This document shows positions 37,343 to 40,456 of a DNA stretch of 64,000 bases, piece after piece (positions within the stretch are counted from its first letter, which is position 1; every line of letters starts with the position of its first letter). A program made the translations under genes and the position numbers. The notes under the pieces were generated by a model, which saw only the letters and a program-made list of their open reading frames with translations, was not told the origin of the DNA and ran no database searches. The stretch is taken from positions 1-64,000 of the forward strand of contig JANQQS010000020.1 of NCBI GenBank assembly GCA_028284955.1. Direction: 5' to 3'. The stretch comes from Myxococcota bacterium (GTDB taxonomy: Bacteria; Myxococcota_A; Polyangia; Polyangiales; Houyiibacteriaceae).

Positions 37343-37772
37343 ACCCGTACTTCGAATCGATCGCGAGTTCGACGCGCCCATCGAAGCGGTGTTTGACGCA
37401 TGGACCGACCCTGCGCAGCTTCGTTCGTGGTGGGGCCCGGAGGGGATGACGGTGCCGGTCTGCGAAATGGATGTTCGAAAGGGAGGCGCCTACAAAACGA
37501 CGATGCGCAACGCCGACGGGGAGGAGTACACGGTGAGTGGCGTGTACCAAGAGATCGCGCGTCCGAATCGACTTTCGTTTACCTGGGGCTGGATCACTGA
37601 TGGAAAACGCGGGCACGAAACGCTGGTGACATTGCGATTTGAGTCGGTCGGCAAACGCACGCGAATGCTGTTTGAGCAGCGTGCCTTTGAGGATGCGGAA
37701 GTTTGCGCGCGCCACAACGAAGGTTGGACCAGCTCGTTCCGGTGCCTCGATTCGTATCTGACGAGCCTATAA
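37275..37772 (+). CDS. SRPBCC (AHSA1-like) domain protein
   Basis: A 165-residue START/Bet v1-fold protein: FDAPIEAVFDAWTDPAQLRSWWGPEG opens the domain, EYTVSGVYQEIARPNRLSFTW is the middle signature, and the C-terminal helix ends HNEGWTSSFRCLDSYL. Such proteins bind small hydrophobic ligands; the ligand is unknown. GAGGAGAG sits eight bases before the ATG, and the gene overlaps the end of the ArsR gene, so the two are co-transcribed and probably form a ligand-response pair. Its stop overlaps the convergent amidohydrolase stop by six bases. Confidence 0.9.
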   Translation: MTQLQSSADPSSTDQANANEEREPVLRIDREFDAPIEAVFDAWTDPAQLRSWWGPEGMTVPVCEMDVRKGGAYKTTMRNADGEEYTVSGVYQEIARPNRLSFTWGWITDGKRGHETLVTLRFESVGKRTRMLFEQRAFEDAEVCARHNEGWTSSFRCLDSYLTSL

Positions 37773-38582
37773 CTTGCCGAGCTGTTGGACGAACGTTCCC
37801 AGCAGCGCCTGGAGTTGTTCGAAGTCGGGGGTTTTGGGTTCACCGCTATCTTCGTGAACATAGAGCGCGCGGTTGAGTTCGATCTGAATCGCGTGCACGT
37901 GGTCTTCCGGGCGCCCGTAGTGCGCGGTGGTGAAACCGCCGCGGTAGGGATCATCGTGGCGCACGCTGAGCCCGGCTGAACGAAAGAACGCATCGGCGAA
38001 ATCGACAATATGTCCTGCCGCCGTGGTGCGCCCTCGGGTGCCGGGGACGATGTCGGCGCGCTTGGTGCCGGTATCGCGGTGGCCCGTTCGGCCTACCGAA
38101 GGCATGGAATGGGCCGCGAGCAAGATCGCGTGACCATGCGTTTTTTTGAGACGTTGAAGTTCGTGCTCGATCGCATCATGATAGGGAGCGTGAAACAGCC
38201 CAAGCCGTTCTTCGAGCTGCGTGAGTGTCAGCGGCTTGGCGAGCACAGGCTGACCGTCAGTAGTCATGCGCCAGACCACGCCGCGCGGTTGCAGCGCCCG
38301 CGGCGCGGGGTGATCAACGACGGTTTGCGCGTCCACGTCGTCGGCGGAGCGATTGAGGTCCACAACGTAACGCGATACGTGTGCAACGAGCATGCTCGCT
38401 CCGTTCGCGGGCGCCTGCTCGTAGAGCTTGTCTACGTAGATGTCTGCGTCGCGCATCAATGCCTCGGGCGTAGCGAGCACCTCGTGCCGCACGACGTCCG
38501 GAATTGCGAGGCCCGCATGAGGAACCTCGACGAGCACTGGTGTCCCGGCCGATTCAGGTGGGATTCGATCAAAAAAGCGCAC
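37767..38582 (-). CDS. N-formylglutamate amidohydrolase-like enzyme
   Basis: A 271-residue member of the N-formylglutamate amidohydrolase family, which releases formate and glutamate in one route of histidine degradation. Motifs: LVEVPHAGLAIP with a metal-ligand His, DADIYVDKLY, VVDLNRSADDVD, LLAAHSMPSVG and HAIQIELNRALY. No other hut genes are nearby, so the substrate may differ. The start is a GTG at 38582 with GGAAGAAG upstream, giving the usual family length. The frame continues to 38819; an ATG at 38705 lies exactly at the edge of the inverted-repeat element and would add a Cys-containing N-terminus. Confidence 0.75.
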   Translation of the reverse strand: MRFFDRIPPESAGTPVLVEVPHAGLAIPDVVRHEVLATPEALMRDADIYVDKLYEQAPANGASMLVAHVSRYVVDLNRSADDVDAQTVVDHPAPRALQPRGVVWRMTTDGQPVLAKPLTLTQLEERLGLFHAPYHDAIEHELQRLKKTHGHAILLAAHSMPSVGRTGHRDTGTKRADIVPGTRGRTTAAGHIVDFADAFFRSAGLSVRHDDPYRGGFTTAHYGRPEDHVHAIQIELNRALYVHEDSGEPKTPDFEQLQALLGTFVQQLGKL

Positions 38583-38932
38583 AGAATCTTCTTCCGCCTT
38601 GCGAGCTATTGCAGTGATCAGTTTGCCTGAGGGTCTGGTACCCAAACCCTCTCGTCTGGATACGACCCCGCCAATGGGCTGGTTGGTGCACAAGTCGCAT
38701 TTCATAGAGCAGTGGAATTTTGGCCTGAGCGCGAGCGCCCCCACAGCGAAGGACTGAGGAAGGCTCCGAGCCTTTCGCAGGAAGAGAGCGAGGAGGTTGT
38801 TGCGGCTGGAGCGGTGCATGGCGGAGCGGACGAAGTCCGTGGAGCTGCACAGGTCTAGACGCAGTACGGGTCCGAAGGACCCCCAGTGTAGATAGGCAGG
38901 GGCAGCCGCGATCAGGCCAAAAGGCCACTGCT
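38583..38932. other. purF to amidohydrolase intergenic region
   Basis: 350 bp occupied mostly by the 231-bp inverted-repeat element. The remaining ~120 bp next to the amidohydrolase gene includes a GAGGGT/ACCCTC hairpin around 38630-38665. No protein gene is supported. Confidence 0.6.
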
Positions 38933-38935
38933 CTA
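38705..38935. mobile_element. 231-bp inverted-repeat element (MITE-like or structured RNA)
   Basis: The ends are 24-bp inverted repeats: TAGAGCAGTGG...TTTTGGCCTGA at 38705-38728 and its complement at 38912-38935, with 22 of 24 positions matching. If TA is the target duplication the repeats are 22 bp. Inside are several smaller hairpins: AAGGCTCCGAGCCTT near 38760, CGGACGAAGTCCG near 38827, and GGGTCCGAAGGACCC near 38868. The right end supplies the purF stop codon. There is no transposase gene. A non-autonomous transposable element is the simplest reading; a folded non-coding RNA is the alternative. Confidence 0.65.
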
Positions 38936-40456
38936 CACGCCTACGAGGGGCAACTGATTCCGCTTATGATGCCCCTTCGGTACTGCGATGGGATAGTTTC
39001 CGCTGAAGCATGCGTCGCAATATCCCTCGCCCCCGACGCCCCGATGAAGCCCTGCCACGGAAAGGTATCCGACCGAGTCGGCGGTGATGTAGCGCGCGAT
39101 CTCTTCCTGTGAATGGCGGCTGGCGATGAGCTCATCTCGCGTGGGGGTGTCGATGCCATAGAAACAAGGCCAACTGGTGGGCGGGGAGCTTACCCGGACG
39201 TGCACTTCAGAAGCGCCAGAGTCGCGAATCATTTTCACGATCTTGCGGCTGGTCGTTCCGCGTACGATGGAGTCGTCGATCACCACGACGCGCTTATTCT
39301 CGAGCACCTCCCGAACCGGATGCAGCTTGAGCCGGACTCCGAAGTGGCGAATTGATTGTTGCGGCTCGATGAATGTGCGCCCCACGTAGTGGCTGCGAAT
39401 CAAGCCCATTTCGTAGGGAACGCCCATCGCCTCCGAAAACCCGAGCGCCGCGGCAACCCCGCTGTCAGGAACGGGAATGACGACATCGGCTTCGCATGGC
39501 TGTTCCTCGGCGAGCACCCGACCGAGTCGCTTGCGCGCTTCATATACACTGATGCCTCCGAAGCTCGCGTCTGGGCGTGCAAAATACACATACTCGAAGA
39601 TGCACATATGCTGCTGCTGCGGAGCAAACGGAAATACGCTGCGCATGCCGAATCGGTTGCACACGACCATCTCGCCAGGTTTGACGTCTCGCAAATACTC
39701 GGCTCCGATGAGTTGAAACGCGGGCGGCTCCGACGCGACGACAAACGCTTCTCCTTTTTGGCCAAGGCAAAGCGGTCGAAATCCGTAGGGGTCGCGTACT
39801 GCGATGAGCTCTTCGGGCGACAAGAACACCAGAGAGTACGCGCCTTCCACTTGGTGCAAGGCATCGGCGAGACGGTCGACATGGTTGGTTTGGCGAGAGC
39901 GCGCCACCAAATGAACGAACACTTCGGTGTCGCTCGACGACGAAAAAATCGATCCTTCGCTTTCAAGCTTCTGCCGAAGCTCGAGCCCATTGGTCAGGTT
40001 GCCGTTGTGGGCCACCGCCACAGACCCGTGTCCGCAGTCCACTGCAATCGGCTGGGTGTTCTTGATGTGGCTTCCCCCCGCCGTGGAGTAGCGGACGTGC
40101 CCGATTGCGCGATCTCCCGCCAGCTTTTCGATCACTTGGTTGGTGAACACGTCTTGCACGAGCCCCAGCCCTCGCTGAACGAAGAGCTGCTGGCCATTGC
40201 TGGTGCAGATTCCGGCGGCTTCTTGGCCTCGGTGCTGGAGCGCGTGAAGGCCGAGGTAGGTTAGATTGGCCGCCTCCACCGCTCCGAACACCCCAAACAC
40301 CCCGCACTCGTCGTGAAAATGGTCGTCGTCGTGAATAGCGGCTACTCGATGAACAGGTTCGACTCGATGAACAGGTTCGACTCGATGAACAGGTTCGACT
40401 CGATGAACAGGGCTGACTCGTTGAATTGGGCCTACTCGGGCGCGCTCGCGCGTCAT
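38933..40456 (-). CDS. purF: Amidophosphoribosyltransferase
   Basis: The first enzyme of purine synthesis, making 5-phosphoribosylamine from PRPP and glutamine. The glutaminase domain starts at the nucleophile Cys51 ([10 protein letters not shown]) and includes [10 protein letters not shown] and HNGNLTNG. The phosphoribosyltransferase domain has [14 protein letters not shown]. Cys-rich family motifs (a [10 protein letters not shown] ending) indicate a possible [4Fe-4S] protein like the Bacillus-type enzyme. The propeptide before Cys51 is usually about ten residues; here it is 50 and made of tandem VHRVEP units. The start codon follows the family's open frame upstream; no strong SD was seen. 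Its stop codon lies in the inverted-repeat element. Confidence 0.95.
40342..40431 (-). repeat. 18-bp x5 tandem repeat encoding the PurF propeptide
   Basis: Five units (40342-40359, 40360-40377, 40378-40395, 40396-40413, 40414-40431) with core CGACTCGATGAACAGGTT; the second and third are identical. They encode VHRVEP repeated ahead of the catalytic Cys of PurF. Confidence 0.95.

Follow-up and report, generated by a model that had tools for sequence, protein, structure and literature searches.

Inverted repeats at the 3' end of purF

The window, a stretch of 64,000 nucleotides from a Myxococcota bacterium, carries on its minus strand purF and an N-formylglutamate amidohydrolase reading frame, with a composite element bounded by inverted arms at their junction. 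The coordinates of all features are summarized in Table 1.

Table 1. Features around the 3' end of purF in the window
Feature	Position	Strand	Remark
Composite element	38705..38935	-	231 bp; on the purF-sense strand, left end 38935 and right end 38705
Left (L) arm	38899..38935	-	TAGAGCAGTGGCCTTTTGGCCTGATCGCGGCTG..., located at the purF stop codon
Right (R) arm	38705..38741	-	
purF stop codon TAG	38933..38935	-	Element bases 1-3
Module B, second hairpin repeat	38799..38882	-	Nested between L arm and core
Conserved core (module A)	38737..38797	-	Positions 34-93 of model R1, 50.5 bits
Repeated tail	38691..38704	-	TGRRATGCGACTTG; in its own genome it usually comes after the R arm
purF (amidophosphoribosyltransferase), upstream gene	38933..40456	-	
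N-formylglutamate amidohydrolase ORF, downstream	37767..38819	-	Domain begins near 38540

The two arms of 37 nt are 84% complementary and pair through 11 perfect pairs, a 2-nt mismatch and 11 further pairs, which together make up the 24-bp inverted ends of the original prediction. As DNA, the 231-bp unit folded with a z-score of -9.1 compared to shuffled versions, as RNA with -8.0 and -8.6 for the two strands, and 0 of 200 shuffled versions folded as well. The predicted fold contains the three internal hairpins with CCG/GAA loops that had been anticipated as a minimum. Read on the minus strand, the element opens with the T of the purF TAG, so that the element end at the higher coordinate does supply the purF stop codon as proposed. 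The purF proteins of about two dozen relatives end with the same residue (...QLPLVGV*), indicating that the element occupies the native stop position. The other end had been thought to touch an ATG of the downstream gene. The overlap exists, but according to Pfam the N-formylglutamate amidohydrolase domain starts only at residue 94 of the long reading frame. ATG codons inside the element or at its border are therefore unlikely to serve as the start, and the true start probably lies downstream of the element. No Rfam match above the gathering score was found anywhere in the window. A different repeat family (AGGGTCTGG..CCCAGACCCTCTCGTCGGGGTACGACCCCGCC, with two small hairpins) adjoins the element at 38629-38672; it also flanks other element copies and was seen at about 15 distinct places among the loci examined.

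Copy number, size classes and modules

In the genome of origin (6.07 Mb), 40 scored matches were obtained among about 190 candidate places, the best scored copies reaching 94% identity along 231 bp and 96% along 207 bp. In total the element is present in more than a hundred copies. Using the 24-base arm pattern with up to 3 mismatches, 212 matches were found in this genome versus 0 for the reversed control pattern, answering the suggested search for other copies with the same ends. Dispersed copies at unrelated sites of one genome were 93-97% identical, and a single-copy, ordinary intergenic region was excluded by these multiple dispersed copies. Complete copies were mostly 126-127 bp long, others 191-193, 216-217 or 230-231 bp. 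In the longer ones, including the window copy, module B is inserted between the L arm and the core. Since module B was also found by itself, in other families of the order, the copy at purF is a composite.

Several further arrangements were observed. Module B stands alone at L043 (genome G031), L032 (G039) and L046 (G016), in tandem at L043 and beside a tRNA gene at L046, where the 3' sequence of the tRNA is partly duplicated. A further hairpin module (GGGGGCGATGTCGCCCCC and CCCCATCGAATACATCCGATGGGG) is inserted in the core at L015, L018, L024 and L201, with about 10 distinct places overall. Two different copies of genome G001 (L131 and L134) have an identical insert of about 52 bp in the loop of the central hairpin, a repeat nested in a repeat. 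Tandem arrays of GACACTGGCGCTGGCACT-like units are abundant in the intergenic regions of G001, G017 and G022, genomes of the related genus g2.

Empty sites and the search for a mobilizer

The comparison with relatives, as recommended by the original prediction, revealed clean empty sites at two loci. At L112 of genome G023 the element lies between two convergent genes and its ends form both stop codons. The filled site reads GCT-TA[G...C]TA-GG, and GCT-TA-GG-type junctions without the element were found in relatives such as G021, G011, G024 and G018. L117 is empty in G021 and G017, full in G023 and G024, and present in internally deleted forms in G022, G028 and G018. The empty and filled junctions of both loci indicate that insertion duplicates a TA, often that of a stop codon, and the deleted forms that internal deletion leaves short solo hairpins. 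Judged from these comparisons, the element is dispersed in many copies and has duplicated TA on insertion at the two clean empty sites, in agreement with the predicted non-autonomous transposon with a TA target. Copies were also detected in front of a 23S rRNA gene (L115) and at the 3' end of a tRNA-Ile gene inside an rRNA operon (L139), the latter site being empty in three relatives.

Neither an IS630-type (no DDE_3 match) nor an IS4/IS5-type transposase (no DDE_Tnp_1 match) was found in the genome of origin, which is 96.6% complete. Its single Y1 transposase showed no association with the element. IS630, DDE_Tnp_1 and RAYT enzymes were consequently rejected as mobilizers, being either not found or not associated. 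Searches of plasmids, phages and viral contigs with the queries used yielded no match and thus no such reservoir.

Position and orientation relative to stop codons

For the genome of origin, 85 distinct left ends with enough flanking sequence were compared to gene ends defined by open reading frames of at least 90 codons and not by annotation. On this basis, 75 of the 85 left ends were located 0-10 nt past a stop codon versus 5 of 40 right ends, and 44 of the 85 coincided exactly with an in-frame TAG stop. In genus g2, where the arms are of different sequence (TAGTGTGCGGATC...), 18 left ends lay exactly on a stop and most right ends faced a convergent gene within 60 nt. In an additional set of 28 elements drawn from the whole phylum, the left end was located at -6 to +1 of a stop in 11 cases compared to a background of 3.1% (p-value of 4e-10), and the right end at a stop in 3. 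At the level of genomic sequence, these counts show a single orientation, with the left end sitting directly on the stop of the upstream gene or no more than about ten bases past it. Separately, 21 of the 85 left ends followed the stop by 4-5 nt, giving stop, 1-2 nt and the TAG of the element (TA-NN(N)-TA spacing; e.g., L204, L085, L198). An explanation of these offsets as excision footprints was not supported, as the intervening bases differ from the element ends.

Compensatory changes and the transcribed strand

An alignment of 25 diverse elements contained 159 double-change cells versus 47 in shuffled alignments, and its covariation score of 0.459 clearly exceeded the shuffled value (0.133) and the slid controls (0.04-0.12). 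For 48 matches, aligned by fitting to the model and including four rows that are reverse-strand matches of members already present, 456 double-change cells were counted versus 142 after shuffling. Across the phylum, pairing is thus seen to be maintained by compensatory changes. The structured element that the original prediction had offered as its second possibility therefore stands beside the transposon. Multiple copies, empty sites and covariation were all present, the reverse of the ordinary intergenic region to which the single-copy case would have pointed.

The second pair of the core helix (CCUCC:GGGGG / CGUCC:GGGCG) occurs as C-G in 24 elements and as G-C in 23. On the strand transcribed with the upstream gene, the third pair is a U.G wobble in 39 of 48, and another pair is G.U in 39 of 48. 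As such wobbles would be A-C mismatches on the other strand, this pattern speaks for the sense RNA being the functional form. A slight tendency to the other strand was seen for the arm pairs (33 A-C versus 10 G-T cells), and when G-U and A-C cells were compared across all shared pairs, the outcome regarding the strand was mixed.

Distribution and outer stems that match the target

The covariance model R1 matched 33 of 282 genomes of the phylum, other classes included (E-value of at most 1e-5). Most of them were multi-copy and spanned the full length (about 110-129 bp), and they again lay at gene 3' ends. Among the records was a deltaproteobacterial MAG of the same order from the Guaymas Basin. 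No myxobacterial precedent turned up in the literature searched.

At some loci the outer stem departs from the standard arm and matches the target. At L138 the native stop of the gene plus flank (CTGACGGGGC) forms the left arm, and an inverted copy of it terminates the right arm. At L123 the right side mirrors the final codon with its stop (CAGATGA), and six orthologs are without the element. Inverted templated copying (quasi-palindrome correction) would explain such stems. At L185 and L170 of genome G028 the flank past the right arm is an exact inverted copy of the gene end past the left arm (CCCAGCACG), suggesting templated palindrome extension.

Comparison with known repeat families

ERIC elements (IRU, RU-1) are 126-127 bp long, possess TA ends and a TA duplication, form an RNA hairpin, are found in intergenic regions and have an orientation-dependent effect on upstream mRNA (PMC2229807; PMC2759123). 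The short form of the element described here has the same length, the 231 bp of the window copy being due to module B. Further shared traits are the TA ends with duplication (here at L112 and L117), folding from end to end, intergenic placement and the lack of a known transposase. Differences are the other lineage, the conserved core, the free outer stems and the nested modules. Homology with ERIC was unsupported by pairwise alignment with the consensus (scores within shuffles), by a profile search (no match) and by the covariance model, which scored two E. coli ERIC copies at 9.9 and 9.2 bits (E-values of 0.07-0.1), nearly end to end and not significant; a comparable match would be expected for a hairpin of the same length. 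As the traits match but no shared sequence is detectable, the element is ERIC-like, not ERIC. In 2005 De Gregorio is said to have found a preferred orientation for ERICs located on stop codons or beside them.

Correia (NEMIS) elements likewise combine a TA duplication with long inverted repeats, and their transcript hairpin is cleaved by RNase III (PMC2229807). Here, however, the core and not the ends is conserved, and the placement at stop codons is strict. The pneumococcal RUP is a 107-bp MITE with a TA target, mobilized by IS630 (PMC2229807). It shares its ends with a resident IS630, whereas no IS630 transposase was found here; equally, a TA target duplication as in IS630/mariner MITEs is present but a related transposase in the genome is not. 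REP/BIME sequences with their RAYT are also extragenic palindromes near 3' ends, but differ in size, in the TA duplication and in the RAYT association, which is missing here.

A mobile hairpin with a probable role at mRNA 3' ends, and its alternatives

We consider it probable (roughly 0.6) that the element is mobile palindromic DNA with a structured core, located at the stop codon on the sense side and acting as a transcribed hairpin at the 3' end. An effect at the RNA level is suggested by the orientation, the wobble pairs and the analogy to ERIC and Correia (PMC2229807, PMC2759123). A transposition activity would place the element in TA dinucleotides. Where the TA belongs to a TAG or TAA stop, the protein would stay the same, as the G at the start of the element restores TAG. 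Copies in sense orientation would then be kept or preferred, because they would be co-transcribed as a 3'-UTR or intercistronic hairpin, and this hairpin would set the fate of the upstream mRNA. Most likely, in the way described for Correia/NEMIS and ERIC, it would serve for processing or for protection of the 3' end (RNase III or RNase E type). In the window, the transcripts of purF and of the amidohydrolase gene would be separated or uncoupled by the element.

Rather unlikely in our view is a purely selfish MITE, inserting at any TA and surviving in harmless ones (stops, short 3' gaps), with a hairpin used for transposition only and no RNA role. The TA duplication agrees with it, and the arm covariation would also fit the maintenance of inverted repeats. 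In the window, the TA of the stop codon itself accounts for 41% of the non-coding TAs located up to 60 nt past a stop, so part of the bias is expected. However, TAs 1-10 nt after a stop make up about 5% of these non-coding TAs, yet 31 of 78 left ends were found there, a concentration close behind the stop well beyond this null. Also, the one-orientation rule is unexpected for a neutral MITE, the core and not the ends is conserved across classes, opposite to typical MITEs, and no matching transposase (DDE_3, DDE_Tnp_1) was found.

A host-encoded 3'-end RNA, i.e., a terminator or mRNA stabilizer inherited mostly vertically with little spread and with stems adapted to the locus, is improbable. 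It would account for the phylum-wide core, for the placement at mRNA and tRNA 3' ends and for the outer stems built from native gene-end sequence with the inverted copy opposite (L138, L123), but neither for the near-identical copies dispersed over unrelated sites of one genome nor for the precise presence/absence polymorphism among close relatives. These dispersed copies and empty sites refute a non-mobile origin of the TAG family. Furthermore, no U-tract was noticed after the hairpin in the copies read, unlike an intrinsic terminator. Mobilization as a REP-like hairpin by a RAYT (Y1) transposase is very improbable: the element is palindromic, extragenic, of high copy number and near gene ends, and weak Y1_Tnp matches occurred in 4 of 6 genomes checked, but this reading is largely refuted by the absence of model matches near any Y1 gene, and element-rich G001 has no Y1_Tnp, the element measures 126 bp instead of 20-40 and duplicates TA, and its left end lacks a fixed GTAG foot.

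Beyond the mobile transcribed hairpin favored here, we tentatively raise the possibility of a structured RNA and mobile element in one, phylum-wide, that installs itself in sense orientation at gene 3' ends such as stop codons and tRNA ends, with a core read by a host RNA-processing factor and an outer stem rebuilt from the last codons of the target by inverted copying. If true, many genes would obtain their 3' UTRs ready-made from such elements.

Overall, the element appears to represent a family of structured mobile elements, so far undescribed, that extends over a bacterial phylum and is placed with single-base precision at stop codons, outside the enterobacteria where ERIC is known. The general placement at stop codons, the composite build of the purF copy, the phylum-wide core and the missing transposase go beyond the original prediction. 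The question of what moves ERIC-like elements is sharpened, because neither of the searched TA-target transposase families was found here. Gene 3' ends occur in large number both with the element and without it, and together with the empty sites in close relatives they are natural replicates which allow testing how mobile hairpins turn into mRNA 3' UTRs.
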